64,000 nucleotides of DNA from Aurelia coerulea (Eukaryota; Cnidaria; Scyphozoa; Semaeostomeae; Ulmaridae), in the NCBI GenBank assembly GCA_039566865.1, contig CM076943.1, forward strand, positions 20,804,501 to 20,868,500, written 5' to 3'. Both the position numbers and the translations under genes were made by a program. This document shows positions 4,601 to 48,207 of the stretch, one piece after another. Each line of letters opens with the position of its first letter. Position 1 is the first letter of the stretch. Under the pieces are notes generated by a model that saw nothing but the letters and a program-made list of their open reading frames with translations, made no database searches and was not told where the DNA came from.

Positions 4601-5546
4601 TTACCCCCAATAGCATACAAAACACCAACAGTTTAAACTAGGCCTAAAAAACATTATCAAATGAAGAAAAGTTCAACTTACCCCCAATAGCATACAAAAC
4701 ACCAACAGTTCCTTTCCTCGGTTTTGCTTTCAGCTGTTGCAGTTCTCCCCTCCTTTCTGGCACCAAATGGTATTTCATCGCTTCAAGCAATAGATCTTTG
4801 CAGGGATTGCTGTCTGCTATAGCAGGAAAGCGTGCCACTTCATCAACCAAGAACTGAGGTGGCAACAAAGGCAGTCTGATGTGCCGTAAAATATCACCAA
4901 CTGCAGACTTCCTAGTTTCATAATCATGATTTATCCAGCTCAAAACACAAGAAAATATCTGCTCTTCTGACGTGACATTGATATCTTCTCCCATCAATAA
5001 ATCACATATCTGTTCTGAGCTTAGCAAGAAAAATTCTTGATTTTTGCAGACATCTAGGAAATGGTCTTGAGCATATTTGTCTGCAATTTTAAACAATTGT
5101 TCACAGCTGTGTGCATCAGCAAAAGCTCTGATACCGAGACAATTTGATGGATGTAACTGGCTTTTCATGAATTCACAACAAGCATCTCTAATGTCTTTTA
5201 TTTGAAGAATGGAAGATGATGCAAGAAGACTTTCTACATTATCTACTCGTATTTCAAGTTCTGAGGTATAAGCATAGTTTATAAGTGCTTCTAAAGCTTC
5301 TGGCTCTATGTTGTTGAGAGTAACAACATTCTGGTGAGTCTCTGCAAGTTCCCCTGTAAACATGGCACTAAAATAATCGCAAAGAGAACAGATAACTACT
5401 TTATGAGCTCTGATTTCTTTATCTCCAGCAACCAATACAACATCTGTGAATTGATCCCTTTCACGAAATTCTGCCATTCTTTTGAAGGATTCCACAATGC
5501 GATTGAAAGAACGGTGGATAACTTTGTCAACTGATATGGTATCCAT
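1542..5546 (-). CDS. KLHL1/4/5: Kelch-like BTB-BACK protein, KLHL1/4/5 subfamily (5' part, two exons)
   Basis: Proteins of this family are substrate adaptors for Cullin-3 ubiquitin ligases: BTB binds Cul3, BACK positions the substrate arm, and the kelch propeller binds substrate or actin. Two exons are visible. Exon 1 (4682-5546) encodes 288 residues: BTB about 27-130 (DQFTDVVLVAGDKEIRAHKV, AMFTGEL), BACK about 135-240 (LHPSNCLGIRAFAD), then a linker typical of KLHL1/4/5 (AMKYHLVPERR, KPRKGTVG) and the start of kelch 1 (YAIGG). Exon 2 (1542-1682) carries the rest of kelch 1 and part of kelch 2 (GRRLQ-type segment RRLQFGVAVLDNKLYLTG). Donors GTAAGT and GTAAGA and a TTTCATCAG acceptor are present, both introns are phase 1, and the reading frame joins correctly. 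The start is the first ATG upstream of BTB. The remaining four or so kelch repeats lie beyond the left edge. Assignment to the subfamily is from remembered family motifs. Confidence 0.85.
3127..4553. repeat. 84-bp minisatellite in KLHL intron 1
   Basis: About 17 tandem units. The main unit is 84 bp (for example 3571, 3655 and 3739 start equivalent units); variants of 80, 81 and 83 bp occur at the left end. Each unit contains the near-palindrome CGGNAGATTCTGCCG region and GACACGG boxes. Because 84 is a multiple of three and the unit has no stop on the minus strand, two long repetitive reading frames appear (3485-3877 and 3900-4583, period 28 residues, PCRIELPYIKNGRIYHR core). I regard these as a by-product of the repeat and not as a gene. 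Confidence 0.9.
4554..4710. repeat. 77-bp tandem duplication including the exon 1 splice donor
   Basis: Positions 4554-4630 and 4631-4710 are two copies (a few mismatches) of the end of KLHL exon 1, its GTAAGT donor and about 40 bp of intron. The copy nearer the ATG (donor at 4680-4681) keeps the reading frame into exon 2. The distal donor (4603-4604) would add 77 bp, which breaks the frame and includes an in-frame stop. Confidence 0.85.
4682..5546 (-). CDS. KLHL1/4/5: KLHL-type gene, exon 1 (BTB and BACK)
   Basis: 865 bp from the ATG at 5544-5546 to the donor at 4681. It encodes the complete BTB and BACK domains and the first residues of kelch 1. The 3' end lies within the duplicated 77-bp block. 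Confidence 0.85.
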
Positions 5547-15338: not shown

Positions 15339-16598
15339 TCAGCTGTCCTCATTTTGATCAGTTACTCGACTACTGTTGTCAATGATACCATCATATTTGC
15401 TATATACCATAAAGACCAGTGGATCTAACACCACTGTCAATGCAGCTAAGATATAGTTAATTGTAAAGACGCTACTTTTGAGGCAAAATTTTCCATAATA
15501 AAGACATGAAGTTGATAATGGCACAAAGCATAGTGTATAACAGGCCAGCATTAATACACATACGGATGTAACCTGCTTTTCATTTCCTAGTCGACGAAAT
15601 TCCTTCTCTCGTCGCCATATTTCCAACTCTTCTCCAAAGACAAAGGAAACATGTCGTTTAACAGATTCTTCAAGTTCTTCTCTTGTTGATTTGAGACTGC
15701 TTTTCAAGGCTCGCATTTTGGAAGGTGATTTGATGGGCGAAATCTTCATTGGGGGTCCCGTAGGTATCGAATGAGATCTCAAGGGTGTAGTATTCAAAGG
15801 AGATCCCAAGGGTATAGTCCTCGAAGCAGGTCTCGTGGGTATCGAAGAAGATCTCAAGGGTTTAGTATGCAAAGGAGATTTTATGTTTGAGGTTTTCACA
15901 TTAGTATGTAACTGAATCGTGCCTTCGTTCTGAGATGCAAATGCCTCTAGCTCCTGTGATCGACCTTGAATTTGCGATGACGAGAAATCCGGACAATATT
16001 GACCAGTTTTAGACGACTGAAACACTGTGTCTTCGTTTAGTGGCATCACAACCATCAACATCCTTCTTACTTTCCTAAGAAACAGACAAATTGACAACCA
16101 CGAGCTAATGACGGTAAATATTACCAATACCGGTATCAATTCCGCACCTGCAATCTGCTTTTTATGAGCACCGATTGCACCGAGTGTTCCGGACGTAGCT
16201 ATTGGGACCAGCAAGTTTAACCATACGCATACATGCAGTATACTTTTCCGGTATGTTTTCCGGTACAGCGAAAGCACCCTGTCGATTGTCATAGCTATAA
16301 AACAGCACGTAAGGTTGGCTATTAAATAGACGATTACCACAAGCAAGAAAATCTCAATTCCAACTTCAAGAGAAGACGATCTGGAGATTCTGGCAGCTAA
16401 TAGGCCTAATGAGCTCAGCAAGGAGATGAACAAGTTGCTTGCTGTTGTAAACTGTATGTGTCGGGTCAATCGAGTCTTGCTTTTTCTTTGAAGCGAAACG
16501 ATGAGTTTAGCTGAGTTTAGAACTATTCCGGTTAGGAAAATTCCTGTTACTGTGTAATAGAATATCTCCATGTTCGGCATGGCTCTTCTCTTTGCCAT
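15339..16598 (-). CDS. Orphan class A (rhodopsin-like) G-protein-coupled receptor
   Basis: Plasma-membrane receptor of 419 residues in one exon, with the stop and ATG clear. Seven hydrophobic segments are visible at about 10-34, 47-70, 78-104, 119-141, 152-175, 342-365 and 376-399. The DRY motif at the end of TM3 is DRV (106-108), and the NPxxY motif of TM7 is DPLVFMVY (392-399), both common variants in divergent class A receptors. The extracellular N-terminus is only about ten residues. Intracellular loop 3 is very long (about 175-341), basic and Ser/Pro-rich with degenerate internal repeats (TKPLRSSSIPTRP, TTPLRSHSIPTGP). The ligand cannot be deduced. Intronless receptors of this kind occur in large numbers in cnidarians and some other invertebrates. 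Alternative downstream ATGs exist (residues 7 and 10). Nothing nearby suggests co-regulation; a 144-bp satellite begins about 200 bp upstream. Confidence 0.85.
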   Translation of the reverse strand: MAKRRAMPNMEIFYYTVTGIFLTGIVLNSAKLIVSLQRKSKTRLTRHIQFTTASNLFISLLSSLGLLAARISRSSSLEVGIEIFLLVVIVYLIANLTCCFIAMTIDRVLSLYRKTYRKSILHVCVWLNLLVPIATSGTLGAIGAHKKQIAGAELIPVLVIFTVISSWLSICLFLRKVRRMLMVVMPLNEDTVFQSSKTGQYCPDFSSSQIQGRSQELEAFASQNEGTIQLHTNVKTSNIKSPLHTKPLRSSSIPTRPASRTIPLGSPLNTTPLRSHSIPTGPPMKISPIKSPSKMRALKSSLKSTREELEESVKRHVSFVFGEELEIWRREKEFRRLGNEKQVTSVCVLMLACYTLCFVPLSTSCLYYGKFCLKSSVFTINYILAALTVVLDPLVFMVYSKYDGIIDNSSRVTDQNEDS

Positions 16599-16809: not shown

Positions 16810-18405
16810 TCTTGATTGAATGCAATTTTATACACAGTCAATTTACTGTCAATTCAATTTTAACCAATATTTCAGCTCCAGTGATTTCGATCTATTAGGT
16901 GTGATTTCGTGATTCAAAGTATTGCCATTATCAATGTATCATTGATTGATCACCACATTGATAGAACAAAATATGATACAATCCAACGTACTGTCAATTC
17001 AATTTTAACCAATATGTCAGCTGCAGTGATTTAAATATATTAGGTGTGATTTCGTGATCCAAAATATTGTAATCATCAACGTATCATTGATCGATCACCA
17101 CATTGATAGAACAAAATATGATCAATCCAACGTACTGTCAATCCAATTTTAACCAATATTTCAGCTGCATTGATTTCAATATATTAGGTGTGATTTCGTG
17201 ATTCAAAGCATTGTAATCATCAATGTATCATTGATGGATCACCACATTGATAGAACAAAATATGATCAATCCAACGTACTGTCAATCCAATTTTAACCAA
17301 TCTTTCAGCTGCATTGATTTCAATATATTAGGTGTGATTTCGTGATTCAAAGTATTGCCATTATCAACGTATCATTGATCGATCACCACATTGATAGAAC
17401 AAAATATGATCAATCCAACGTACTGTCAATCCAATTTTAACCAATCTTTCAGCTGCATTGATTTCAATATATTAGGTGTGATTTCGTGATTCAAAGTATT
17501 GCCATTATCAACGTATCATTGATCGATCACCACATTGATAGAACAAAATATGATCAATCCAACGTACTGTCAATCCAATTTTAACAAATCTTTCAGCTGC
17601 ATTGATTTCAATATATTAGGTGTGATTTCGTGATCCAAAATATTGTAATCATCAACGTATCATTGATCGATCACCACATTGATAGAACAAAATATGATCA
17701 ATCCAACGTACTGTCAATCCAATTTTAACCAATCTTTCAGCTGCATTGATTTCAATATATTAGGTGTGATTTCGTGATCCAAAATATTGTAATCATCAAC
17801 GTATCATTGATCGATCACCACATTGATAGAACAAAATATGATCAATCCAACGTACTGTCAATCCAATTTTAACCAATCTTTCAGCTGCATTGATTTCAAT
17901 ATATTAGGTGTGATTTCGTGATTCAAAATATTGTCATTATCAACGTATCATTGATCGATCACCACATTGATAGAACAAAATATGATACAGTCCAACGTAC
18001 TGTCAATTCAATTTTAACCAATATTTCAGCTGCAGTGATTTCGATATATTAGGTGTGATTTCGCGATTCAAAATATTGTCATTATCAACGTATCATTGAT
18101 CGATAACCACATTGATAGAACAAAATATGATACAGTCCAACGTACTGTCAATTCAATTTTAACCAATATTTCAGCTGCATTGATTTCAATATATTAGGTG
18201 TGATTTCGTGATTCAAAGTATTGCCATTATCAACGTATCATTGATCGATCACCACATTGATAGAACAAAATATGATCAATCCAACGTACTGTCAATCCAA
18301 TTTTAACCAATATTTCAGCTGCATTGATTTCAATATATTAGGTGTGATTTCGTGATTCAAAGCATTGTAATCATCAATGTATCATTGATGGATCACCACT
18401 TTGAT
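16810..18405. repeat. 144-bp satellite array
   Basis: About eleven tandem units with a 144-bp period (equivalent TCAGCTGCATTGATTTCAAT boxes at 17161, 17305, 17449). Each unit contains GGTGTGATTTCGTGATTC, ATCATTGATCGATCACCAC and CCAACGTACTGTCAAT. Variants (GATTCAAAGTATTGCCATTA against GATCCAAAATATTGTAATCA) alternate in blocks, which points to expansion by unequal exchange. The first unit is degenerate. Confidence 0.9.
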
Positions 18406-19229
18406 AGAATACAATTAGATTATACAATAGAGCTAATCATCAGTTGTAACAAAACTTGATAATATCGTCTGCTCTGTTGCAAAATTTACATTGAAGAGAT
18501 TCGACGAATCCTGCAATCAGGTGGTCTAATTATCAGACAGGTTGTTCTTATCTCTTACTTTTTGAGCTCCTCATGGCTCGTCAAAGCAGTAACAAACAAC
18601 ACAGCATGATTTTAGTTTTTAAGCAAATTTTTGATAGCAAGATCCAACAACTTTGAAATTATTTTACAAGATTCAGTGTATTCCTCTCTGCCCTCGCATA
18701 AAATCTGAATTGAATCCATTGACCTCTCTGTTATCTTCGTTTATGATAAAACAAACAAGGAAATAATTTCAGCAGTAAATTGACAATTCGTGCTCTTGGA
18801 CAATTCGAAGCTTCAACGATAAATAATACGCTAAGAATTGCGACCGAGTTGTTCTTTATATGAGAGTAAATCATACTTTATCGACAAGACTGTATCCATC
18901 TGCAAACACTCTGTTCATGAAATATTAAGCTGTCGGAATAGTGGCTTTATCAAGTGAAATCTGCTTCTGCTGAAAATAGTCAATCATATTCGGCATGGTG
19001 TTGTCTGAGAATCGCTTTGTTCCCTAATGTTATTAAAAACTACAGCAAAACTGGTTTATAAAGAAAATAATTGATACTGTACAATGAAACCTCCTTGAGC
19101 TGCTCCTGAATGAATATCATATGGAACTGAGTTAACTTTCTAGCACGTTCTGTTATCAATGACTACATCCACTGTCTTTGTTCTAAACTATCTATTCATT
19201 GCAAGAGTAACACATTCATCCTTCCGAAT
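18406..19229. other. No gene seen
   Basis: Unique AT-rich sequence between two tandem arrays; no supported feature. Confidence 0.5.
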
Positions 19230-20015
19230 AACCTGTATGAAAATGGTTACGCTTTTTCTGCAAGTTCTTTGATCAAAGTCTACCACCGTTCTTCTGTTAG
19301 ACAAAGCAGTAATGATCTTCTTAACACTGCATCTGTTGAATATATCTGCAATAACATTCAATCTGTTACTGTTACATTTACTGCCTGCGAAGCACTTTGA
19401 TAATTGTGAATAATCTGTATGAACATTGGTAAGCTTTTCCTGGAAGCTCTTTGATCAAAGTCTACCACCGTTCTTCTGTTAGACAAAGCAGTAATGATCT
19501 TCTTAACACTGCATCTGTTGAATATATCTGCAATAACATTCAATCTGTTACTGTTACATTTACTGCCTGCGAAGCACTTTGATAATTGTGAATAATCTGT
19601 ATGAAAAGTGGTAAGCTTTTCCTGGAAGCTCTTTGATCAATGTCTTCCACCGTTCTTCTGTTAGACAAAGCAGTAATGATCTTCTTAACACTGCATCTGT
19701 TGAATATATCTGCAATAACATTCAATCTGTTACTGTTACATTTACTGCCTGCGAAGCACTTTGATAATTGTGAATAATCTGTATGAAAAGTGGTAAGCTT
19801 TTCCTGGAAGCTCTTTGATCAAAGTCTACCACCGTTCTTCTGTTAGACAAAGCAGTAATGATCTTCTTAACACTGCATCTGTTGAATATATCTGTAATAA
19901 TATTCAATCTGTTACTGTTACATTTACTGCAAGCGAAGCACTTTGATAATTCTGAATAGCTTGTATGAAAATGAGTTAATTTTTCCATCAAGTTCTTTGA
20001 TCAAGGCTACCACCG
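19230..20015. repeat. 182-bp tandem repeat, four-plus units
   Basis: Units of 182 bp recur (equivalent points 19358, 19540, 19722). Shared boxes include TACCACCGTTCTTCTGTTAG and CTGCATCTGTTGAATATATC. The outer units are diverged. On the minus strand each unit carries an open frame of about 61 codons whose stop overlaps the ATG of the next, because the period is two more than a multiple of three; I do not think it is coding. Confidence 0.85.
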
Positions 20016-20667
20016 TTCTCCTGGCAGAAAAATGGAGCAATTATCCTCTAAAAAGCAGCGAACTATAGCAATATTTCACCAATTGAAAATAGCCTAAGCA
20101 TTTCATTATTTTGTCCTTCAGTTACTTCAAGTTCGGCAAGTCTAGACTTGAACACTGTTCACTACTACTTCTTGCTGGCAGGTAAAGTAATTATGCCTCT
20201 CTATATGCCTTATGATATGAGATATGATCTGTAAACCGTAGTTTTGTCTTATTTTTCTTCAATCTCAGCAGCACCTAGCAACGGCTTGCTCAATGACCTG
20301 TCTGCTCCTGTGAATATCTTCAAATGAAATCTTTTGTACACACTAAACCCGTGAGTATTTCTGCAACTGCTTACCCAAATCCTTTCTTTTGTATTTCTTG
20401 AAAAACAGAACCTGTGAATAAAGCAAATAATAACAGTGACAAGTCGTGAATTATCAATGTCTTTCAAACGAAACAACGGGCAGCGTATTTATGACGCATG
20501 AAGGGGAGTAGTTCTACATGAGGCAGCACTTCAGAATGATGCTTTATTATTCTGCAGTTTCTAAAAACCACTTTAACACGGCAGGATGTGTAAGTAAATT
20601 GAGATACACACCTCACGACTAGTTCAGTTTGTAACGTCTAGCCCCAGGAGAGGGAATTGCCATTAAT
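20016..20667. other. No gene seen
   Basis: No supported exon or repeat. Confidence 0.5.
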
Positions 20668-26802: not shown

Positions 26803-29211
26803 TTACAGCTGTTCATCTTCTTCTTCTGCCGCAATGATTCTCATTGTCTCTGCTGCATCTGCCGCCGCTCTTCTTCTCGGTCTGAAAGCTCTGGCTTCTG
26901 GATTCAGTTGGTCTTGGACTCTTAGTTTGGTCACGTCGCATGACAACTCTAGCGGATACAACTGTTGTACAGCTCTCTCAAGGTATGATTTCCCGGCTCT
27001 GAGTTTTGCAGCTCTCACAACTCCGTCTCTACCAGAAATGAGATTTGTGATAATTCCGATACTCCACTTGCCTCGGTTACGTTCCTCTCCTTTTATTAGC
27101 ACGACATCTCCTTCCTTGAGCGATGGGGTCTTGCTATCATGCTTTAGGTTATGACGTTCTCTTAGCGCTTTTACGTACTCCCCCGTCCACCTTGACCAGA
27201 GAGAATCTTTGCATTTCCGCAAATACTTTGCACGATTCCTCAAATCTGTATCCTCTACATCGTCAGCATCTTCCTCTGGTAAGTGGTTTGGAATGCTGAA
27301 CATCATCACGTTAGGTGTGAGAATAGGCAATTGGACATCATCTTCGACATAGCTTAAGGGGCGATTATTCAAGGCAAGTTCAATGTCAAGGATCACTTCC
27401 TCAAGTCCACTCCAACTCAGGCATGCTCTTCCCAAAGTTTTGTAGAGAGATTGTTTCACCAGCCCCACCATCCTTTCAAACTGCCCGCCCCACCAAGGAG
27501 CCTTACTCAAGTTGAATTGCCATTTGATGTGCTGATGGGCCAGAAAATTTTGAAGACTCTCCTTTTTCATGATCTTCTTCAGCCATTTTGCTCCAGCAAC
27601 GAAGGTTTTCCCATTATCAGAATAGATCTTCTCAGGCCTTCCTTTTCTGGCAATAAAGCGTTTCAGACTCTTCAGGAATTCTTCTGCTGTTTGATCAGGC
27701 AGCAACTCTAAGTACAAGGCTCTTGTGAGGCTGCATGCAAAGAGTAGGATATATGCTTTTCCTTCTTGCCGTTGTTTGCGTTTGTAGATGATCGGTCCAG
27801 CATAATCGACTCCAACTACTTGAAATGGTCTAGATCCTTCGGTCCTGTCAATTGGCAGATTTCCTTCTGGTGGACTCGCAAATGCTCTTGCCTGGAATCT
27901 TTTGCATCCGTTGCATTTCCTAATGACTTTCTTCGCCAGTTGGCGAAGTCGCAGTCTCCAATAGTCACGACGAATGAACTCCATTGTTAGGCCAACTCCC
28001 CCATGCAAGGTTTTGGTATGAGAATCCATGACCATTTTTGCACTCAAGAGGGATCTTGTTGGAAGATACTTTGGATAAACACCCTGAATTCTCCCTCTAC
28101 ATTCGTAGATCCCGCTCTCATCTTCTTGTAAGTTCAGTCTCAACTGATCTGCTTTGAATTCTTCAGTATCACTGTAGTGACGTTGCTCCCTTCTCACCCA
28201 AATCTTGATCTGCTTGTCAATTTCTTCTGTGGTCAATGGTCCAGATAGTCTCTCTGACTTATTTGATTTACAGTTGTGAATGAATCTAGCAATCCATGTG
28301 GTTATTCGCATCGACTTCCAATAACTGTGCCTTTCAAGAATCGTCAGCAATTCGTCTTCGAATTCTACTGCAACACCCAGAACTTCTTTTGTCAGTTTTG
28401 CTTCTGCTTCTGTGTCATGATTTGGCTCCGTTACTATGTCTCTGGGCCATTGTTCAGTCATTGACAGCCAGTTTGGTCCAATCCACCAGCTTTCCTGTAG
28501 TTTCGCAGCTGCTGCTCCTCTGCTAGCTACATCAGCAGGATTCTGTTCAGTTGGTACATATCGCCATTGTATGAAACTCTTCTCTCGAATTTTCCTCACC
28601 CTGTTAGCCACGAATTGCTTGTAGTTACCCTTTCCTCTGATCCAGTGTAGTGCAACTGTGCTGTCAAGCCATCCGGTCACTTGTTGAACTGGAAATCCAT
28701 CCAACGCATCCTTGACGCTTTGTGCAAGATTTGCCGCCATATGAGCAGAAACAAGTTCGAGTCTTGGAATGGTCACTCCTTTCTTTGCTAAACGAGATCT
28801 TGCAGCTACAAGTCCTTGACTCAGTCCTGACTTTTGATGTACGACTGCATAGATGACTGCTGCAGTTCCTGTTCCACTCGTGTCACCAAATACATGCAAG
28901 TCAATTGCTTCAATCTGCTCTTGATGCGCTACAAGGCTTCGTGGCAATTCAACTTCCAATGGTAAATTCTTCTCAAACTTCTCCCACTGTTTATGTATGA
29001 CATCTGGAAGGTCTTTATCCCATGGTACGCTCTCGTCACATGTGGCTCGGTAGACTTCTTTCCCAGTCAAGGTTATTGGTGATACCAGTCCAAGTGGATC
29101 GAAAATTGAAGCAAGAAATCGCAAGATACCTCGCTTTGTGACAGCTGCTTTCTCTTGTGGAAACGTGACTTTTAGTGTGTCACTCTTCTTGTTCCAGGTT
29201 AGGCCCAGCAT
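26803..29211 (-). CDS. BEL/Pao pol, C-terminal part: RNase H and integrase
   Basis: Frame of 802 residues. The N-terminal part is the end of the reverse transcriptase (MLGLTWN, FDPLGLVSP). RNase H follows with FGDTSGTGTAAVIYAV and the usual BEL stretch IPRLELVSAHMAANLAQ. The integrase has a zinc-binding H-H-C-C region (TLHGGVG... CNGCKRFQ), then the catalytic acids in VDYAGP, SDNGKTF and GGQFERMVG. The C-terminus has the RPLSY and GDVVLIKGE segments of BEL integrases. The frame is open upstream of the listed ATG for about 14 codons before the break that separates it from the reverse transcriptase, so that ATG is not a true start. Confidence 0.9.
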   Translation of the reverse strand: MLGLTWNKKSDTLKVTFPQEKAAVTKRGILRFLASIFDPLGLVSPITLTGKEVYRATCDESVPWDKDLPDVIHKQWEKFEKNLPLEVELPRSLVAHQEQIEAIDLHVFGDTSGTGTAAVIYAVVHQKSGLSQGLVAARSRLAKKGVTIPRLELVSAHMAANLAQSVKDALDGFPVQQVTGWLDSTVALHWIRGKGNYKQFVANRVRKIREKSFIQWRYVPTEQNPADVASRGAAAAKLQESWWIGPNWLSMTEQWPRDIVTEPNHDTEAEAKLTKEVLGVAVEFEDELLTILERHSYWKSMRITTWIARFIHNCKSNKSERLSGPLTTEEIDKQIKIWVRREQRHYSDTEEFKADQLRLNLQEDESGIYECRGRIQGVYPKYLPTRSLLSAKMVMDSHTKTLHGGVGLTMEFIRRDYWRLRLRQLAKKVIRKCNGCKRFQARAFASPPEGNLPIDRTEGSRPFQVVGVDYAGPIIYKRKQRQEGKAYILLFACSLTRALYLELLPDQTAEEFLKSLKRFIARKGRPEKIYSDNGKTFVAGAKWLKKIMKKESLQNFLAHQHIKWQFNLSKAPWWGGQFERMVGLVKQSLYKTLGRACLSWSGLEEVILDIELALNNRPLSYVEDDVQLPILTPNVMMFSIPNHLPEEDADDVEDTDLRNRAKYLRKCKDSLWSRWTGEYVKALRERHNLKHDSKTPSLKEGDVVLIKGEERNRGKWSIGIITNLISGRDGVVRAAKLRAGKSYLERAVQQLYPLELSCDVTKLRVQDQLNPEARAFRPRRRAAADAAETMRIIAAEEEDEQL

Positions 29212-29234
29212 CTTTGTTTCATTCGCTTTTACTC

Positions 29235-30137
29235 CTAGTTGCTGTTTTGCATAGGTATTCCTCCATCAGAACCTGCATCTTCACCCTCTAACTCTGGGAT
29301 ATTTGAATGCCATTTATGCAGTTTGAATTGTGCTCTCCCAAAGATTTCCACCGCACCGTGTTTCAGATGTTGTGCTTCTTGGACATTGTTCGCACCAGTG
29401 ATTACGTCATCGACATAGAGTGACTTCCAAATCTCCTTGACTTCTTCTGGATACTCGGCTTCGCAGCTCCTTAGATGTTCCTCAATGGTGCCTCCCAAGA
29501 GAAATGGACTTTGAACAAGGCCAAATAGAGCCCTCGTGAAACGATAAACTTCAACTTTTGATGGATCTTTGTCCTTTATCCAATGAAATCTTAAGGCGTC
29601 CCTGTCTTCTTCCCGGATCCTCACTTGCAGAAAGGCCTTCTTCAGGTCTCCCGTCAGTGCAACTGGCTTGAATCTGTTTCGCACTAGGATAGCCCACATT
29701 AGATTTTGCAGAGGGGGTCCCGTCTCCAAGCAATCATTTAATGATGGGGCATTGTCACTTGCTCTCGCTGATGCGTCATAGACAATTTGTGTTTTTGTAC
29801 TCTCTGCTTGCTCTCTCACTACTGGTTTGTGCGGTATGCAGAACTCTCTTCCTGTTGCCTCTGATGGTGCTTTTTCGACAATTCCCTCTTCTAATTGCTC
29901 TTGAATGATCTGGTCGTATTCTTCGAGTAGTGCTGGATCTCTTTTGAGTTTTCTCACCAGGCCTGAAAGTCTCCCCAAGCTTCCACTCTGATTGTTTGGA
30001 AGGGGGGCATGTCCACTTTTCCACAGTAAGCCAGTCTCATACCATCCTTCCGGGCTTCGAGTCAACTGCTCCTTGAAGTCTTCGAATACTGTTGCTTGGT
30101 CATCTGATGCTCTGTCTTCTAATCCCAACACATCCAA
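29235..30137 (-). CDS. BEL/Pao pol, reverse transcriptase part
   Basis: Frame of about 300 residues that begins in the linker after protease (GLEDRASDDQ) and covers the fingers and palm of the reverse transcriptase, including DLKKAFLQV with the first catalytic Asp and LYVDDVITG with the YVDD box. It ends early at a stop (29235-29237), where a one-base frame change moves the homologous sequence into the 26803-29211 frame. Relative to gag this frame is shifted by +1. Confidence 0.9.
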   Translation of the reverse strand: MDVLGLEDRASDDQATVFEDFKEQLTRSPEGWYETGLLWKSGHAPLPNNQSGSLGRLSGLVRKLKRDPALLEEYDQIIQEQLEEGIVEKAPSEATGREFCIPHKPVVREQAESTKTQIVYDASARASDNAPSLNDCLETGPPLQNLMWAILVRNRFKPVALTGDLKKAFLQVRIREEDRDALRFHWIKDKDPSKVEVYRFTRALFGLVQSPFLLGGTIEEHLRSCEAEYPEEVKEIWKSLYVDDVITGANNVQEAQHLKHGAVEIFGRAQFKLHKWHSNIPELEGEDAGSDGGIPMQNSN

Positions 30138-30156
30138 TTTGCACAGGTCTTCGTAA

Positions 30157-32028
30157 TCAGCTGTTGAGCTTCTGGTAAGGTAGATACTGCCTCAAGTCAG
30201 CTTCTTTTCCTGGTGACATTACTGTCCATCCCAATGCTGTCAGTTCGGCCACTGGTTCGCCAGGATCTCCTATTCTTGGTTTAGTCTCGGTTTTGATTTT
30301 GGCATACTCGCTTGCACCAACAATCATGTGTATAGGCAGCTCAGGTTTTCTGTCCTTGTCATCCATGATAACTTCTTTCAGATGCTGATGTCGTTCAATG
30401 AGACGTCCATACTGCGGATTTGGAAGTGAAAGCAGAACTGCTTTGTCTACTTTAGTCACTGTAGCCATCATCTCAAAAGCATTTGTAATGCTTGCAACTT
30501 GCATGTGGTAGATTTCAACCTTCTTGCTGGTAGTATGCATCATCATGTCAATTCGCCTTGTTTCTTTTCTGATAGGTCTCTTCCCGATTCGTTCTGCTAG
30601 CGTCGCTGAAATGTATGAGCTCTCAGCTCCAGTGTCAAGTAAGGCTCTGCATTTAACGTCATTTACCTTCACTACAACAACTGGGTAAATCACTGAGCCT
30701 TCACCAGTTGCTACCATAATTTGCTGATTATCTTTGTCGCAAATTGATGTGTGATGTTTACCACTGCATCTCTGACATGTAACTTTACTCCTGCACTCTG
30801 TTGCTCTATGTTTTTCTCCAGTGCAATTGAAGCAGAGTTTCTTCACGCTCAACAATCGCTTCCGTTCAGTGACGCTCTTCACTTTCTGACATTCGCTTGA
30901 CTTGTGTTCGGTTGAATCGCAGTACGCACATGGCCTTGGTTTCCACTCGTGCTGTTTCACTTGGAAAAACCTCTCCCTTCGCTGCTGTTTGTTCACTTTG
31001 TCGCTTGACTGATAATCGCTGATAAGGACTGGATTTCTCTCACACCATTTTCGTAACGCTTCGATCAGCTGAGGAAATCCCCACTTCTGCCAATTGTCGT
31101 CCATTCTCACAAGATCTGCTCTGATTGCTGGGAGCTTGTCAAGGGTCATCCTCACATATCCATTTACTTCAATAAGTTTCCCCATTGTTTCCAGTGCTTG
31201 AACACTTGTCACCAACTTTTCGTAGAATTCATGTACTCTTCCTGGCTGCGATCCGTGCACGGTCTGCAAAGACATCAGTTTCTGGACATGGGCATGGACA
31301 ATTTCGCTTGGCTCGCCATACTTCGTCTTCAAAATTTGTTTTGCTCGCTCATACCCCTCCGTTGTAAATGGAAGCCCATCAATAGACAGTCGCACTTTGG
31401 GTATCACCAACTCCTTGAGGTATGAGAACTTGGCCACTTGTCCTATCTCTGCCTTGTCGATTTCTGTCTCGAACTGATTCCAAAATCGCTGCCAATCCAA
31501 ATGAGTTCCTTGGAACTTGGTAATGACCAGCTTTGGTAACTTTGCATGAATGTTCTTGTCTGCTTGTGTCTGAAGCCTTTCTTGTGTCCTATCCAGCTGT
31601 TTCTCCATGTCTTGCTTCATTTTCTGCTTTGCCTCCTCTATTCTGAGCTCTTGATCATATTGACGCTGCCTCTTCACCTCTTCGATCTCCTCTTCCCTTC
31701 GTCTCTCTTGATCTCTTTCACGTTCCTTCAAAGTTTTGATTTTCTGATCGATTTCTTCCACTATTTCCTCGTAGACAGCCATATGATCATCTGTTTCTTG
31801 CCTCCACTTTTGGACATCTTCCATTTTGTCGCCTTTCTGGATCATTTGCTTCTGAATTTCCAACTTCATCGCGTGTATTTCGTCTGTTTGACTCTCCATA
31901 GCTTTCAAATGACGTTCAAGTGGTCTTACAGCGTTCTTATCCAAGATTTTTGGTGTTTCATCACTTGTAAACTTCAGCATTTGCACCATGCCATCGAATG
32001 TTTTCTTCAGTTTCTCGATGTCTCCCAT
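30157..32028 (-). CDS. BEL/Pao gag and protease
   Basis: 623 residues: a charged coiled coil (about 40-165), a DUF1759-type gag region (about 170-315, KFQGTHLDWQRFWNQFE), Cys/His zinc knuckles (about 367-430, CAYCDSTEHKSSEC and CFNCTGEKHRATEC), then an aspartic protease with the active-site LLDTGAESS (about 463-471). The start ATG is 115 bp inside the 5' LTR border. The stop near 30157 comes just after the protease and is created by a frame change; the pol frame overlaps it. Confidence 0.9.
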   Translation of the reverse strand: MGDIEKLKKTFDGMVQMLKFTSDETPKILDKNAVRPLERHLKAMESQTDEIHAMKLEIQKQMIQKGDKMEDVQKWRQETDDHMAVYEEIVEEIDQKIKTLKERERDQERRREEEIEEVKRQRQYDQELRIEEAKQKMKQDMEKQLDRTQERLQTQADKNIHAKLPKLVITKFQGTHLDWQRFWNQFETEIDKAEIGQVAKFSYLKELVIPKVRLSIDGLPFTTEGYERAKQILKTKYGEPSEIVHAHVQKLMSLQTVHGSQPGRVHEFYEKLVTSVQALETMGKLIEVNGYVRMTLDKLPAIRADLVRMDDNWQKWGFPQLIEALRKWCERNPVLISDYQSSDKVNKQQRRERFFQVKQHEWKPRPCAYCDSTEHKSSECQKVKSVTERKRLLSVKKLCFNCTGEKHRATECRSKVTCQRCSGKHHTSICDKDNQQIMVATGEGSVIYPVVVVKVNDVKCRALLDTGAESSYISATLAERIGKRPIRKETRRIDMMMHTTSKKVEIYHMQVASITNAFEMMATVTKVDKAVLLSLPNPQYGRLIERHQHLKEVIMDDKDRKPELPIHMIVGASEYAKIKTETKPRIGDPGEPVAELTALGWTVMSPGKEADLRQYLPYQKLNS

Positions 32029-33625: not shown

Positions 33626-33634
33626 ACTGCCACT

Positions 33635-34226
33635 AACAAAGGCAAATTTTGTAATAGCCAATCAGGAGGCGTTGTCAGCAACCAATCAGAAGCCAGAACG
33701 GTGACGTCACTTTGTTTACATTTTGCCCGCCTCCCCCCGAAAGCTGTGGGGAGAACCTGGTCGCACAAACACGGCCGTCACCAATACATACTTCCTTGAA
33801 ACTCTCCCAGTTTTCGGTAAAATCTTTCTAAGGAGACAACTCGTAAAAAACTCGCGGCCCTAAGCGATCGCTTCGTGACATTTTTCTGCAGCGACGTCCA
33901 AATTTCACGCTTTCAAAATTGCATTTTAGACGGGCCTAGGCACCCAGGGAGGTTGACTCCCACGCCAAAAGAACATAATAATTCGCCACCAAGACCGCAA
34001 AATTCCCCAAGAAAACCATTTTTTAACAGCTCCTTTATTTTGATATTGATTTCTTATCAACTGTAAATTTATCTTTCCCCCCGCCCCTCAAAAAAATTAA
34101 TCATTTGAAAATTTCCCGCGGAAAAAATTCTGCATTGGGTGGGCGTGATTCTGCGATGGAGGATAACACGAGAAGGAGGACAAAGAATATAAAACTCTTC
34201 TTCAACACGAAGTTGTTTCATCATGG
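33635..34226 (+). repeat. Left terminal inverted repeat of the 6.7-kb transposon
   Basis: 592 bp. It contains two CCAATCAG boxes (33658, 33682) and a perfect TGACGTCA (33702-33709) within the outer 75 bp. Confidence 0.95.
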
Positions 34227-34261
34227 CCAACATGGCAAACAAGCATGGACAAAAATATCAC

Positions 34262-34628
34262 TCAGAGAGTCAAAAAAGGTCTCTTCCAACTTAAAATGTC
34301 ATTGATGATGTAATCTACGCGACCATGTCCAGCTTCAGGAACAGTTACATCTTCGTCGGCATCATCATCACGCTCCATCTTTTGCTCATCGTCACCAGCA
34401 TCCATCTCGTCGTCTTCTTCATCACTGTCATCGTAGAGATCAGGGTTCAGTACAGCTGTGTTTGCTTTTTTACTGAGCTCGCAAACGAATTGTTTCAGAA
34501 CTTCCTTGCATATTGGACAAGATCCGATGTCTGGAAGCAAGCACGCTGTGTGGAATGAATGGCCACATCCATGAAAAACACGCCAAATTGGCCCTTCCTT
34601 GTTTTTGCAAGTTTTCAAGTCACACTTC
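34262..34628 (-). CDS. Transposase gene, last exon: RING finger and acidic tail
   Basis: 121 codons plus stop. Cys and His spacing CDLKTC, FHGCGHSFHTAC and GSCPICKEVL is that of a RING-H2-type finger, a fold used mostly by E3 ubiquitin ligases. The tail (DLYDDSDEEDDEMD) is strongly acidic. Confidence 0.7.
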
Positions 34629-37600
34629 CTACGATGAAAATCAGACAACGAACAAGAAAAATCATCAGGTAACTTTGATCAGATTGTCCGTTATTTTAAG
34701 GCTATTTTTAAATTTTGTACCACGAATCATTTGTTCACAGTTTTTCAGTACCAGTAGTGGCTTGACAGTTACAAATTTCAAACCCTTCCTTCACTTTGAG
34801 AAATACTATGAAGCATCTCAAACTTGGTTGCGTCTATCAGTCAAACCACTTTCAAAATATAATTAGATTCTTTATACCATTGTCCCAAAGTCCTCTAACT
34901 TGACAATCTTTTTCTATTCCTAACTAACTGAACTGTAAAAACAAGTCATCTGCTGACAATACCAGCAGAAATATGTTATGTGGCTGTGCAATATATTAGA
35001 GAATCATGCCATGGGCCATGCTACGGCTAGTAGCAAGAACATTTGATTTGGGAAAATCTTTTGGAGATAATAATACAAATTAGTTAACACATATGTAGTC
35101 AGTTTGACAAGATGGAAAAGTTCGACAATTTTTAAAATATATGAAATATTTACAGCAAGTACATAATCTTTTTCTGAAACCAGAGTGAGTGACCCTGACA
35201 TGGGCTCCAAGTTTGACTTTCTCTAGTCTCAATGACAACATCAGGCAACAATCAAGACTGACATACCACCCTGACTCCTCCACCCAGGGGGGGGGGTACT
35301 TAGTATATTGTTCTGGTGGGGATGTGCCATTTTTCAGGGTATCGCTTTTGCAAATGCAATTTTTTTCTGGCACGGGGTATAAAAACAAGGCAAATTTTCT
35401 AGAGCAGATTGTCAAAACATGCAAAAGGTGATATTTTGTTAGGGGTCATTTTTCAGTCAAATTTTCATGGTTTGTTGTATACTTTTCACCAAGTTATAAA
35501 AGAATTGGTTATCATTCGCGGAAAAATTCTGAAGCAGGGTAAAACAAATTTTTTGGGCACATCTCTGCACAAATTTAAGTCAAGTAGCCCCCCCAGGCTC
35601 CTCCATTTAGGCTGATCTACACTAGATGACATAAGCGTACGGGGCGGGGGGGCCAGGGGGGCGGCAGCCCCCCCAATGTTGGAAAAATCATCGAAAATCA
35701 GCCCCAATCGGGCAAGAATCTGCCCTCAGTTGGGCAAAAATGTTGGTAAACAATGGACTTTGTGTCGGGCCGCCCCCTAGATTTTTTCTTCCCGTACGCT
35801 TATGCTAGATGATCTTTTCAACGATTGACCCAGAAAAGCTGTTTCGATTTCTACAAAGTGTTACTATAATTTTATCACAAACACAAATCTGGGTTTAGGC
35901 AGGAGAATCCTGCGATTCCATTAGCCAAAAACTCAGCAAACAAAACTGTCGGACAAAAAGTAGAAACTAACTCCTACTTTTCGTCCATGGAATTTTTGAT
36001 GCAGCGATAAGAGATGTTCTACTGCACATGTGTTGTCCAAAATCTTTATGAAAATCATCTAGGAAATTATCCCGTGGAGGTAGGCCTTTACCGTGCTCTC
36101 TGAGATAAAAATAGACTGTACTGGTACTGTAGCAAGTAAATTTTGATGTAACATGATGTGTTTTTGGGGCTCCTGTGACCATGGTTGTTTTTTGTGAAAG
36201 AAATTGCTACACAAGGTTTTCTTAGAAAGAATTGCATAGGCAGTACCATTTTCAAATGATCATTTATAGGGGTGCAACCAAGATATTTTGTGGGGTGCAC
36301 CATGGTTTTGACAAACAAACCGCCTAAAGAGCAAATGATGGCATATTTTTATTATATGGAATAAGGTGTTTCCCCCAACTTATCATACCCCTTGGATACC
36401 CCACTGTGCACATTTTTATAGATACGGGCTTACTTGTTTGGATCTGGAGAAGATTCATGGCACAAAAAGCCTAGTGGCAGGACATCATTGGTCACAGTGT
36501 TTTCACCAAAGATGTCTGGTAAGTGCCATTTTGTCACCCTGCTGTTGCTCTTTTTTGTAGGGGCTTTCACCAACTTTCCTTCATTAGGTTTTTCAAGAAT
36601 TGACTTGAATTTCTTTGCAAGGAATTCTGCAGCCTTGATCTTCAACAGTTCAACATTCTTATGTGTGAAGTTTTGCTTTCTATCAGGGACAAATGCAGAC
36701 TGAAATTCGCCAAGTTCATGTTTTCGTGCATCGATCTCCTTTGCTGCTAAGCTGATCATTTCTGGGGTATCAGTAACCCTCGTATGTGCTCGTATAACCG
36801 AGTGAAAGTTTTCCACAGGGTACTCATCAAAGGCGCAAACAGAAGACAGCAGTGTGGAGACAAGGGGATGATCAATACTCTTCCAGTACTCAAAATTGGA
36901 TAGAGCAATCAGTGGGGCTTTGTCATAATGCCTCCTCCGATACATCAAAAACATCACCCAACAGCGAAGCAGTGACTCAAAGTATAGATCTGCCATATTA
37001 TCTCTGAATACAACAGAGTAAATGCACAAACTAAGAGGCACATAAGTATCAAGAAGGTTTAACAAAACCAGATACTGGACATCCTTTGAACTAACAAAGA
37101 CTGACATTATGGCATCACGAACAAGAAGCCATCCACCATACAAAACCTCAAGGAGGAAAGATATACGCCAAGGCTTTGGCTTTTTTGCAAGAGGTTTTTT
37201 GGTGCCAAAGAGAAAAGCATAGAGATCAGCAAACAATTTGTGAAACTTCAACAAAATGTTTTCCCTTGCATTCAGCGAAATATGCAAAGGACCAATGAAT
37301 GGAATCAAGTTATGGATACCCTCATTATAAACAATTTGCCGGACATAGAACTGGCAAGGCCAATCTCCTACAATGGGCACCACAAACTGATCTAAATACA
37401 GACTCAGGCCACTTTCTAGAATAATACGAAGTGCAGAGTGAAAATCATCATATGACTTCAATGGCAGCTCCACACAATCAACCAGCTTGCATTCTTCCAT
37501 AGACCTCATCCTCAAAATTTCATGTTGCTGATAATCATGGGTTAACAGCCTGTATCTCTGAGACTCAGGATCGAAAAACTTTGCTTGTAGCCAATCTGGC

Positions 37601-39279
37601 ATAACTTCAACATATGATTTGGCAAGCTTTGTTGAATTCCTTTCAATAAGATCACTGAGGAGAGCACTGTTTGCTGGCATGGGGTCCTGGTCATCAGGTC
37701 CAACAGAATAAACTGACTGGATGTTCTTGAAACTCTTCAAAAGCAAGGTTGCCATGTGTGCTGGTTGAGTCTGGGTAGCATTTGAGGGACGGTGAGTTGT
37801 ATGAATGTTATGGTAGTCATCGATAAAGATGACTACCATATGTTCATTTGAAATTGCCTCCTCAAAGAATTTTTTGACACTTTCGTGATGACTTAATGAC
37901 ATTTTTTTGCATGCCTTTGAAACTGTTAAGGGGTGGGATGTCAACCCCATGTTTCGCAATGTCTCTATGCCTCTGGATGAGACGCCCAAACCTTTGACTG
38001 TACGTGCAGTCGCAACCTGGAACCAATTGGCTTGTTGCGACTGCCCGTACATCATTATGTAAATGATTGAGACAGCTCTTCTTTCATTCAGTAGCTGTCT
38101 CTGTTCTGACTGTCGATCACCTTTCATTGCTTCAGTTATCGTGTCAAATAATTTCAAGGATCCTGCTTCCACACACAGCATCCTAAACTCTGCTGGGTCA
38201 GTTACCGGTTTGCCCCCTTTTCCAAATTTTTTTGAACACTTTAATCTCAGCTGTGTTAGCTCTTGGTTGTTTAGATTACATGTTTTTGTTACTTTACCCA
38301 AAAGATCTTCAAATAATGCTTTGTTAATTATCACATTGTCATTTTCATCAATTTTCACTTCTTTCTGTAATTCATTGTAATATTTTACATTCATTTTTCC
38401 TTCCTCAGTATTTTTCTCATGTTCTAATTCTGGAACACTTTGGCATGGCTCATCACTTTCTTGGGAGCTAATCCACAATTTTTGGCTTGGGCAGCTTAGG
38501 GTTTCTGTTCTCTCAGAGTCATCCTCATCGTATAATTCTTGCACAACCTCTGCAGGTGACACTTCATTTTCTGGCTCCATTGGTTCTGCACATGATTGCT
38601 GCAAAATAGTTTGTTTTATCTAAATTTGAAATCTTATCTGATAAATTTTTATTTCTTTTAGCTTAGAGATCAATTTAATCCCCCCATTTGAGATGAACCA
38701 GGAGCTAATAACAAAGATCAAAGTGTTCATTTGAATCCTGGCACCAGCAAACCTTAAACAATGGATATGTACCTCAACTGCAGCACATGACACTGACTTG
38801 CTATTGATCAGTAATAGACAATTTAAACAAGACAAAGTAAACTAACAGCCATGAAGCACCAATGTCAAGAAATATAGCTTAACTGATGAAGAAAGCACAA
38901 TAAGTGGAGATTCCAATGAAAGATGTACAGTATGAAGAAAATTCAACAAAGGCTTTGGACTGGCACATCTCTTTTGAACTAACAAATTGGAAGTATCTCA
39001 CCCAAACAAATTAAATGTTAAAGGAGTGGAGAAAAAGAAAGTACCTCTTCACTGGTAGAAACTGGAGCATCATTACATCCAAGGAATCGAGTAAAATCTC
39101 TCTTCATTCCTGCCTTCTCGATACATTTCTTACATACAAAGCGGACCTTGTGAGGCTTTAGGCCATTCTCCTTTGCTACATTCTTGAAAGCCTGAAGATA
39201 TCGCTTGGTTGGCACTTTCAAATCAACATTTCTAGCATATCCTTTAAACCAAGTGTTGTGCAAAGGATTGCTGCACAAT
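34262..39279 (-). CDS. Putative transposase with N-terminal Cys cluster and C-terminal RING finger (spliced)
   Basis: Three exons are visible on the minus strand: 39279-39045, 38598-36434 and 34628-34262. Donors GTACTT and GTAAGC and acceptors TTTTGCAG and TTTCATCGTAG fit, and the phases (0, then 2) join without a stop. Exon 1 has Cys pairs (LCSNPLHN, CKKC). The central 721 residues are acidic at first (1-70), then a long alpha/beta region with candidate catalytic acids in VIFIDDYHNIH (262-263), VPIVGDWPCQF (414) and FDEYPVENFHS (593-598). The last exon gives a RING-like C-x4-C...CGHSFHTAC...CPIC and an acidic tail. I presume it catalyses transposition of the surrounding element. Proteins of this layout are, as I remember, common and unnamed in coral and other invertebrate gene sets. 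The N-terminus is incomplete: the first visible exon has an acceptor and needs an upstream start. Confidence 0.7.
35283..35597. mobile_element. G-run hAT-like MITE, copy 4 (inside the transposase intron)
   Basis: Starts CCCAGGGGGGGGGGTACTTA and ends AGCCCCCCCAGG. CTCCTCCA is duplicated (35275-35282, 35598-35605). Confidence 0.8.
35630..35804. mobile_element. Small foldback MITE, copy 3 (inside the transposase intron)
   Basis: CATAAGCGTACGG and CCGTACGCTTATG ends with an exact 8-bp duplication CTAGATGA (35622-35629, 35805-35812), which suggests hAT-type mobilisation for the whole small family. Confidence 0.8.
36434..38598 (-). CDS. Transposase gene, main exon
   Basis: 2165 bp, 721 codons, open throughout. 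It begins at a TTTTGCAG acceptor and ends at GTAAGC just before the TAA that terminates the unspliced frame. Segments such as IPFIGPLHISLNAREN, KPKPWRISFLLEVLYGGW and RRRHYDKAPL look like conserved blocks. Confidence 0.75.
39045..39279 (-). CDS. Transposase gene, 5' visible exon (Cys cluster)
   Basis: 78 codons. Read from a GATTTGTTAG acceptor to a GTACTT donor. Contains C and CxxC pairs and basic stretches, consistent with a zinc-stabilised DNA-binding region. The acceptor position is uncertain by about nine bases. A start exon closer to the right TIR is expected but not identified. Confidence 0.6.
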
Positions 39280-39788
39280 CTAACAAATCGAAAACAACTT
39301 AAACTAATAAACTTTCTTATTTTGAGAGCCTCTAAACAGACAAAAAAGGACAGCAAAGTAACAAGATAATGAGTCTAATTTTCCCACCAAAAATGTACCC
39401 TATCCCTGGTTATATTTCATTCACGAAAAGTCAGACACGCGTCTGTCTGGAAATCTACACGTCTAGACGGTTAATCAGTAATTTCCTGGAAAGAATAAGA
39501 CCTGTTTATTAAAAAATATATAAAAATATACTCCCTCATGTCAACGAAAATGTTAGTAGGCCAGTCTCCACCATCCATATGTTTGTGAGGAAAATTTACT
39601 CTTTTCGTTGACGGTCATATCAAATCAAGCCACGAAGTCAGCAAGTTGATAGCTTGACCATGCAATCATTATGTTCCTTGCAGCCATCAACAAGTGACCG
39701 AAAAAAGTGAATTTTAATTCACTGACAGTGAAAGGCAATAAATAAGTATTTCACTTCAATCCAATTTAGTTTTATTGCGAAGATGCTG

Positions 39789-40380
39789 CCATGATGAAAC
39801 AACTTCGTGTTGAGGAAGAGTTTTGATTTTCTTTGTCCTCCTTCTCGTGTATCCTCCATCGCAGAATCACGCCCACCCAATGCAGAATTTTTTCCGCGGG
39901 AAATTTTCAAATGATTAATTTTTTTGAGGGGCGGGGGGAAAGATAAATTTACAGTTGATAAGAAATCAATATCAAAATAAAGGAGCTGTTAAAAAATGGT
40001 TTTCTTGGGGAATTTTGCGGTCTTGGTGGCGAATTATTATGTTCTTTTGGCGTGGGAGTCAACCTCCCTGGGTGCCTAGGCCCGTCTAAAATGCAATTTT
40101 GAAAGCGTGAAATTTGGACGTCGCTGCAGAAAAATGTCACGAAGCGATCGCTTAGGGCCGCGAGTTTTTTACGAGTTGTCTCCTTAGAAAGATTTTACCG
40201 AAAACTGGGAGAGTTTCAAGGAAGTATGTATTGGTGACGGCCGTGTTTGTGCGACCAGGTTCTCCCCACAGCTTTCGGGGGGAGGCGGGCAAAATGTAAA
40301 CAAAGTGACGTCACCGTTCTGGCTTCTGATTGGTTGCTGACAACGCCTCCTGATTGGCTATTACAAAATTTGCCTTTGTT
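39789..40380 (-). repeat. Right terminal inverted repeat of the 6.7-kb transposon
   Basis: 592 bp, inverse of 33635-34226. It lies upstream of the transposase gene, so its CCAAT boxes and TGACGTCA (40306-40313) could form the promoter. Confidence 0.95.
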
Positions 40381-40389
40381 ACTGCCACT

Positions 40390-46269: not shown

Positions 46270-48138
46270 TTACTGAAAGTTCATATTAAAACCGATCTGA
46301 CCACCTGCTTGAAAGAAATCGACATGACCACTACCATCTTGACCGTTTCCAGTGATATCACTCTCATTTTCCGATTCCCCTTCATCTGATGCTGGCTCCC
46401 CTTTGGTCACATGACCAGCAATGCGTGATGATTCCCGCTTGCGTACAACATCAAGGCCAAACTCAGCGAGCTCATTCCCCGGTTTCTTTTTACGTCGTCT
46501 CCTTGGCTTGATCCCCTCGGCAGCGTTTTCACAACTTTTCAATGCTCTGGTGACAAATTTAGCATCAAGGCGTTCCATTTCACTTTCCATATCTATGCCA
46601 ATGCTGATCTTAACAGCAATTATGTGTTGACAGAACATAGCCGAGTCACACGTACATGTGGCACGAGGATGTAACTTGACAAGGAAGCTTTCATCGGGTC
46701 GTTCCCATTCTTTGACAACGAACGCTTGAATCGCGCCATTATGATGTACCCCACCATTTTCATAGATGTTTCTGCCTTTATTAAGCAGTGTTTTCTTTGC
46801 ATCAATCTCAGCCCTTTCTACGACAAAGCCATCTTGTACCACTAACTGATCATTCTTGATGTAGTGAACAATGTTGTCTGGTAGACATAAAAATGGCACG
46901 GGCTTCCAATCCTGGATGCTCGTCTTCCAATCTGTGGTACTCTCTCTCGGGCTGAATCTGCCCATGCCATGCAAGCTATCCTTGAGATCTTTCTTCACGA
47001 ACTGCTGAACAAGATAGCATGCTAAGGCAGTGGTATAAGCTGATGCATTTCCTAATGCTTGCAGATGCTGGATGACAATTTCAAGGCAGTCATTTCGACC
47101 ATCGTTCACTCCTGTATACGGGTTGAAAATTCCCCATCTGTCAAGAAGCCATCTTCCTAGCTTGGCTCTAACTGTTGGGTCGATATTCACGGCATAATAC
47201 TCCTGCAACGCTGTTCCCCAATGCTCTTTACATTGTTCTACACCCTCTTGGTATTTCTCTAAAGATTCATTAGACATAAGCTTCCGCATGTCATCAAGTC
47301 CCGTTGCCACTTCCTGTTGCGTTGCACCATTTTCATACAACCACTCTTTTGCTTGCAACACAATTGCTTTCCATGAGGCTATCGGGGTTAGGTTTAGTCC
47401 CATTTCCTGGATACAGTTATCCTTTAGCAGGTCACCTTCAGTGATGATCGGAGCTTCAATCGTTTTAAAAGAAGGAGCTTGATTCTGGATGATGCGGAAA
47501 AACTCTTGGTGTACTGTTACATCATTTTTCTCGTGGATGACAAAATGCGATGGTATTGCAGGCTTACCATCAAATGCAATATGAGAAAAAAGCAGAGGTG
47601 AAAGAATTAAACCACCTATCTCGTAGGAACTGCAGTAGGAGAACAGCACAGTTTCATTCAATGCGATGCTTGACTGCAACACAGCCTCGAGATGATCAGC
47701 AAAATCTTTCACAGCAATGACACACTGAAACGTCGGGGCAATCTGCACATGGTTAACGAATCCATTGAGATTATAAGCCAACTCGTGTAGCTGCTTAAAA
47801 TCATTTTTGGTTACGGGTAGCTTTCGTTGTATCACTACGGGCGGCCGTGCCACATTGACAGAGGCACTGCCTGCTGCAAGTGATCTTGATCTTTTGCTGG
47901 CTGATGATGGGGATTCTGATTTATCCGCTTGATTGCGCGGTCTCTTTGCTGATACAGTGATTCCATCCATGCTTCCCATGTACTGGATAATACAGGGCTT
48001 TAGCTGTCGAATGTCATTTATTAACGTGTACACACTTTTGTGAAACTTGGATGGTCGGCCATCTGGTAGTTTAGCAACGAAATACCGCTTCTGGATGACC
48101 GGTTTCTTCACTGGTATTGCTTTAGGGCCATGGTTCAT
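46270..48138 (-). CDS. SWIM zinc-finger protein derived from a MULE transposase
   Basis: About 622 residues from ATG 48136-48138. The region equivalent to a Mutator-like transposase is recognisable: LILSPLLFSHIAFDGKPAIP (about 179-198), FVIHEKNDVTVHQEFF, then HWGTALQEYYAVNIDPTVRAKLGRW (about 308-332) and NPYTGVNDG, and finally a SWIM finger with CTC...FCQH (C497, C499, C505, H507 in the frame beginning 48144). A basic patch RPRRRRKKK-like (about 547-554) suggests nuclear entry, and the tail is acidic. Where active MULEs have catalytic acids, I see FSYCSSYEIG (no Asp) and IITEGDLL, so it is probably not catalytic. The frame stays open upstream of the ATG into 48240, so a 5' exon may be missing, or cut by the MITE at 48208. 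Could be a domesticated gene or a decaying copy. Confidence 0.7.
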   Translation of the reverse strand: MNHGPKAIPVKKPVIQKRYFVAKLPDGRPSKFHKSVYTLINDIRQLKPCIIQYMGSMDGITVSAKRPRNQADKSESPSSASKRSRSLAAGSASVNVARPPVVIQRKLPVTKNDFKQLHELAYNLNGFVNHVQIAPTFQCVIAVKDFADHLEAVLQSSIALNETVLFSYCSSYEIGGLILSPLLFSHIAFDGKPAIPSHFVIHEKNDVTVHQEFFRIIQNQAPSFKTIEAPIITEGDLLKDNCIQEMGLNLTPIASWKAIVLQAKEWLYENGATQQEVATGLDDMRKLMSNESLEKYQEGVEQCKEHWGTALQEYYAVNIDPTVRAKLGRWLLDRWGIFNPYTGVNDGRNDCLEIVIQHLQALGNASAYTTALACYLVQQFVKKDLKDSLHGMGRFSPRESTTDWKTSIQDWKPVPFLCLPDNIVHYIKNDQLVVQDGFVVERAEIDAKKTLLNKGRNIYENGGVHHNGAIQAFVVKEWERPDESFLVKLHPRATCTCDSAMFCQHIIAVKISIGIDMESEMERLDAKFVTRALKSCENAAEGIKPRRRRKKKPGNELAEFGLDVVRKRESSRIAGHVTKGEPASDEGESENESDITGNGQDGSGHVDFFQAGGQIGFNMNFQ

Positions 48139-48207
48139 CCACAAATATTGGTCACGTTTCTTATCTGAAATGTCAAATATGCACTGGGTGAGTAATGAAT
48201 GTATCCA

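Follow-up and report, generated by a model that had tools for sequence, protein, structure and literature searches.

Structure of the element and its gene

We analyzed a 64,000-nucleotide stretch of the Aurelia coerulea genome (contig CM076943.1, positions 20,804,501 to 20,868,500; hereafter the window), in which a recent DNA transposon occupies positions 33635–40380, flanked by an exact 9-bp target duplication. It carries an interrupted gene on the minus strand. The left terminal inverted repeat (592 bp, 33635–34226, plus strand) starts AACAAAGGCAAATTTTGTAA and aligns with the right repeat (39789–40380, minus strand) at 590 identities in 594 columns; the first 531 bp contain no difference. 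According to the end alignment and a count over the window, the 9-mer ACTGCCACT lies directly outside both ends (33626–33634 and 40381–40389, no strand assigned) and only there. Its chance expectation in the window is 0.31 matches, and two or more copies were present in 5 of 100 shuffled windows, so it is the exact placing at both ends that counts.

Empty target sites were sought by joining the flanks of the element with one ACTGCCACT and searching this query against the genome. Of the 42 matches, two belong to the flanks of the window copy itself; among the remaining 40, 36 spanned the junction at 71–90% identity. Four junction-spanning sites were aligned: three (L080–L082) are gap-free across the junction with a single ACTGCCACT each, and the fourth (L079) carries one ACTGTCACT and is gapped at two other places, with one 3-base gap roughly a dozen bases away from the junction. 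These alignments indicate that the element inserted within an interspersed repeat, other copies of which show the empty site. A preliminary description of this DNA, made from the letters alone, had proposed a recently moved 6.7-kb transposon at these positions with an exact 9-bp duplication, and the ends, the 592-bp repeats and the empty sites all agree with it.

The two splices of the gene are inferred from its sequence. The exon 1 region (39045–39356) is an open frame for a C-x4-H ... C-x2-C domain and has no preceding ATG. A putative intron 1 (446 bp, GT...AG, 38599–39044) separates it from exon 2 (36434–38598), which has an AG acceptor and a GT donor and encodes the predicted DDE transposase core, including D262/D263, D414, GPLH (438–441) and E598; residue numbers refer to the 724-residue frame at 36433–38604. 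The putative intron 2 (1805 bp, GTAAGC...TAG, 34629–36433) was placed by splice-site sequence and homologs. Exon 3 (34262–34628) encodes a C3H2C3 RING finger and an acidic tail and ends in a stop codon. Exons 2 and 3 together encode 843 residues. The Cys-cluster N terminus and C-terminal RING of the preliminary description were located in the exon that ends at 39045 and in exon 34628–34262, respectively, and its candidate acids (IDDYH, GDWP and DEYPVEN) were found as IDDY, GDWP and DEYPVEN.

The predicted transposase core

The predicted structure of the main exon product is that of an RNase-H/DDE transposase into which a helical domain is inserted, a confident prediction (pLDDT, the predicted local distance difference test, 83.6). 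In both of the models compared, the solved structures nearest to the core were the P-element (6PE2/6P5A) and Hermes (hAT) transposases, with which the predicted fold is consistent; no MULE transposase was among the 50 structural matches listed for the two models. An RNase H fold with D-D-E at 262/263, 414 and 593–598 had been anticipated, and it was predicted confidently, with D262, D414 and E598 as the best candidates. Conservation was counted over 134 aligned rows, leaving out rows gapped at a given position: D262 and D263 were each retained in 118/118, D414 in 129/133, E594 in 121/123 and E598 in 118/122, and G438 (131/133) and H441 (132/133) define the GPLH motif as GxxH. One homolog, L089, reads N-D at the positions of D593 and E594 and retains E598, which favors E598 as the catalytic Glu. 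We propose D262-D414-E598 as the catalytic triad of the modeled fold. The core has the layout D, D, xxxH, helical insertion, E, in which the all-helical block at about 455–592 would be an insertion domain by analogy with hAT and P transposases.

Sequence searches against the PDB gave three matches to the window protein at E values of 0.22–0.23, to a cytochrome subunit, and none to the family profile at E 10. The window protein also matched AAA at 20.9 bits, where the cut-off is 21.2 (9 of 37 members did so at E 0.1). This was rejected as a chance match because it lies below the cut-off and spans the strand of the first Asp in the predicted RNase-H fold.

By this model, D262, D414 and E598 would hold metal ions, and binding to the transposon ends is the likely role of the N-terminal C-x4-H...C-x2-C domain. 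After excising the element, the enzyme would probably join it to target DNA cut with a 9-bp stagger, which host repair would fill, and the RING likely recruits a ubiquitin-conjugating enzyme. This likely mechanism is an already known one.

Related elements, homologs and accessory domains

The genome was searched for other copies by their ends, as had been suggested; the left end gave 15 DNA matches. Seven copies, from three families, were read at both ends, and five of them have 9-bp duplications. Family 1 contains the window copy, C8:19.86M (duplication ATTTATAGT) and C14:19.77M (duplication CATCGCCAC; its left end has two additional A). Family 2 contains C4:16.65M (duplication ATTTCCCGG) and C8:6.8M, which are 99.55% alike over 6883 columns and whose 596-bp repeats are identical inside each copy. 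Family 3 contains C12:11.52M (duplication GGTCCATGG) and C11:12.0M, with repeats of 466–467 columns that are 98.5–98.7% alike. The ends of the three families are similar (AACAAAGGCAAATTTTG, AACAAGGACAGATAATG and AACAAGGGCAAATTTTG), and the repeats of families 1 and 2 share short stretches only, at best 16/17 bases.

A protein search of the genome (525 candidates, 62 scored) gave 64 core matches, 46 of them without a stop and two of the 64 being small pieces, and placed the core gene in at least 60 further locations besides the window copy. Some copies are 99.5–99.9% alike, with near-identical core pairs in L026/L028 (99.9%) and L014/L015 (99.7%). The ratio of nonsynonymous to synonymous substitution rates (dN/dS) was calculated for the 24 of 30 loci whose core frame reached 550 residues or more, in 13 pairs with dS 0.02–1.5. 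Between related families the core frame has a low dN/dS: 0.12–0.15 at a dS of about 0.8 for L029 against L026, L027, L028 and L032, pairs that are not independent of one another. The genome also holds at least 103 DUF6589, at least 150 P-type and at least 105 MULE matches; many of these have equal scores, so several kinds of DNA transposon may be recently active.

The main exon found 155 relatives at E ≤0.001; of the 120 listed, those with a named source come from Rhopilema, Dendronephthya, Exaiptasia and Acropora, and one had a Pfam domain (NIF3, in a fusion). A profile search found 188 relatives, with no Pfam domain in the 120 listed. The scan of prokaryote contigs gave one confirmed relative, the L089 homolog mentioned above, on a 4276-base soil contig filed under a Bacteroidetes metagenome-assembled genome. 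Its contig has 23% GC and an uninterrupted 930-codon frame with the Cys domain, core and RING, and the homolog (L089:392–3148) is full-length; the only inverted repeats on the contig are low-identity AT-rich pairs. The contig is probably a mis-binned eukaryote. A viral source was rejected, since neither of two viral-contig scans yielded a confirmed relative.

The RING of the window protein has eight Zn ligands in C3H2C3 order (C-x4-C-x11-C-x-H-x3-H-x2-C-x7-C-x2-C). In the genome this strict pattern matches six distinct sequences, and a looser pattern adds the family 3 copies and L025; RING and N-terminal Cys domain are common to all three end-mapped families. Among 133 listed homologs the pattern occurs in 15, and many of the others are single-exon pieces. 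Pfam RING scores fall below the cut-off, as does the PHD score (12.4 bits against 24), and the spacing is that of RING-H2. In the structure model of P0013, whose RING is at 790–831, residues 791–850 have pLDDT 79–95. The RING is likely a ubiquitin-ligase part. The N-terminal domain has pLDDT <50 in the same model, and the exon 1 product has no Pfam match. A THAP origin for this domain was rejected (hhalign P = 0.18, no AVPTIF motif).

One branch of homologs (P0099, P0100, P0102, P0104 and P0107) has an extra C-terminal domain with GSNACTVIA-like and mostly D/E-S-H motifs (ESR in P0102). Only P0107 of the five matches the herpesvirus tegument N-terminal family, and weakly so, at 16.2 bits against 25. 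On this weak match, P0107 may combine RING and deubiquitinase-like domains in one transposase. Tegument-like deubiquitinases are described from Helitrons and, in Cnidaria, as fusions with transposon-associated domains (PMC9741609); this part of the system is thus already partly known.

Placement among DNA transposon superfamilies

We consider it probable, at roughly 0.8, that the window element is a copy of a DNA transposon whose interrupted gene has as its predicted product a cut-and-paste transposase with the RNase-H (DDE) fold, and that it belongs to an unnamed superfamily-level lineage. On these sequence comparisons the group stands apart from the named families searched, and the best label for it is therefore that of an unnamed lineage at superfamily level among the hAT/P/MuDR/Kolobok/Dada-like transposases, marked by GxxH in place of C/DxxH. 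"Unnamed" is meant relative to the Pfam families and literature searched. When the window protein (E ≤10) and 37 members (E ≤0.1; 25 of 28 families listed) were scanned against Pfam, no transposase family was among those listed; the preliminary description of a type without a name and without a MULE signature is borne out to that extent. Neither outcome that it had named as refuting, a clear profile match to a named superfamily or a predicted structure lacking an RNase-H-like fold, arose with the Pfam profiles and models used. Among the papers listed in literature searches, no title or displayed start of an abstract describes this group, which does not itself prove absence.

Several observations weigh against this reading. 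The core model had no Foldseek match at E 0.001 (best 4.7e-3), and a helical insertion is able to raise Z in structure comparison. Nine closer pairs have a less reduced dN/dS of 0.35–0.59, including 0.53 for the window copy against the C14 copy. Two of the seven two-ended copies (C8:6.8M, L039, and C11:12.0M, L058 and L059) have no target duplication; inter-copy recombination or one-ended events are possible in these. Finally, the spliced gene of more than 900 residues in the preliminary description holds for the exon and splice layout but not for a complete gene: exon 1 of the window copy is missing 31 bp that are found in the C8, C14 and C22 copies and include their ATG, and no in-frame ATG lies ahead of the Cys cluster. 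In the C8 sister copy, exon 1 comprises 84 codons and, joined to exons 2–3 of the window copy, would total 927 residues; in other families the start M is at the same place, ahead of C-x-N-P-L-H. Because the start-codon segment is missing, the window copy probably cannot make the full protein alone. It is probably not autonomous and would depend on protein from a sister copy.

A very divergent MULE, on the MuDR/Rehavkus side, could have inherited the 9-bp duplication and the long repeats from its MULE ancestors, but we think this unlikely. The pointer to MULEs in the preliminary description stands as far as these two features are concerned: the duplication falls in the 8–11 bp range of MULE/MuDR elements (PMC6446971). 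Some MULE frames of this genome also have E-[NS]-F-H-x2-L-[KR] around the Glu, and Rehavkus shares a Cys-rich finger, which is a PHD there whereas the window group has RING-H2 spacing. The pointer fails at the protein level, where no MULE profile match (PF10551) and no SWIM row was listed in the Pfam scans and hhalign against six MULE frames gave P = 0.22 (reversed control 0.81), with the MULE motifs unpaired in the aligned stretch. C/DxxH after the second Asp is a MULE/MuDR feature, and DxxH lies right after strand 5 in P (PMC8230255); the MULE frames of this genome read LDSTH...CAWH...ALENFHRVLK, with CxxH where the window group has GPLH. In addition, P and Hermes structures score higher, and the element has no long minisatellite array like that near the 3′ end of Rehavkus, only two low-score arrays of about two copies (35694–35741 and 38816–38842).

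We likewise doubt that the protein belongs, as a highly diverged member, to the P or hAT superfamily, even though these gave the top structural matches for both models and the core has the layout of P elements (PMC8230255). With five P-like proteins, the best hhalign stretch ended at the first Asp in register (P = 0.042); a deeper alignment paired this Asp again at P = 0.25, but the reversed control was better, at 0.11, and P-element kinship was rejected as a candidate. The Pfam scans listed neither a P-type (PF21787–21789) nor a hAT row. The group has no significant sequence or profile match to the Drosophila P element, its N-terminal domain does not match THAP, and it has G for D in DxxH; in this genome the P-like frames have LDEM...DVCH...QDHIELFFGAVR. 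It also has a C-terminal RING, and no RING is known in P or hAT proteins. The 9-bp duplication contrasts with about 8 bp quoted for P and hAT (PMC3706591).

Membership in the DUF6589 or KDZ group, as the preliminary description had suggested, appears improbable. DUF6589 (PF20231) frames, which are common in the same genome, share the motif order GD...xFH...ExFN/H, with GDQLT...ADFH...LEHFN parallel to GDWP...GPLH...VENFH in the window group. The profile match was not significant (hhalign P 0.071–0.084; 0.078 against 0.76 for the reversed control), deeper runs aligned regions other than the motifs, and none of the DUF6589 matches in the genome overlaps the 64 core matches. DUF6589 kinship was rejected, with a very distant tie possible; since the real MULE and DUF6589 scores are better than their reversed controls, these lineages may have a distant common origin, though not at a significant level. 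The Pfam scans (hmmscan) gave no KDZ/Plavaka row, and duplications are 2–3 bp in Plavaka and 8 bp in Zisupton (PMC12730594), against 9 bp here. The window protein differs from the RAG1/Transib group too, having no C-x2-C between D414 and E598. Transib duplications are 5 bp. The signature of that group is C(2)C...H(3-4)H (PMC12730594).

The missing start-codon segment would fit repeats that arose around an unrelated host gene as a foldback or segmental artefact, but this is refuted by whole copies on other chromosomes, in which repeats and gene travel together with the same ends, by two further families, and by the exact duplications and empty sites.

Returning to an unnamed lineage of DDE transposases, a wider version of this reading has about even odds. 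It would be a new superfamily of eukaryotic DDE transposons with GxxH, ends of the form AACAA...TTGTT, duplications of 9 bp and a RING ubiquitin ligase within the transposase itself, that occurs in cnidarians and a soil eukaryote, with one branch that has gained a tegument-like deubiquitinase. If so, the elements would be able both to attach and to remove ubiquitin, acting on proteins of the host or on their own. About twenty superfamilies of eukaryotic DNA transposons are listed in PMC9587614; with its own signature and an open core frame in many places of the genome, the group would add a branch to the hAT/P/MuDR-like transposases. The RING shared by cnidarian elements and a homolog from a probably unrelated soil eukaryote offers a way to test whether ubiquitin ligation regularly takes part in transposition, and the near-identical copies are ready material for an activity test.

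Elsewhere in the window, three adjoining minus-strand frames (26803–32028) read by eye like the three coding parts (gag/protease, reverse transcriptase, integrase) of a BEL/Pao-like retroelement, and a 624-residue minus-strand frame (46270–48144) has, on the same kind of inspection, a SWIM-like CTCDSAMFCQHI motif. Two further minus-strand frames resemble, also by eye, a BTB/Kelch protein (4644–5546) and a seven-helix receptor (15339–16598). Tandem arrays lie at 3120–4560 (84 bp x 17), 16844–18409 (144 bp x 11) and 19226–20023 (182 bp x 4.4).

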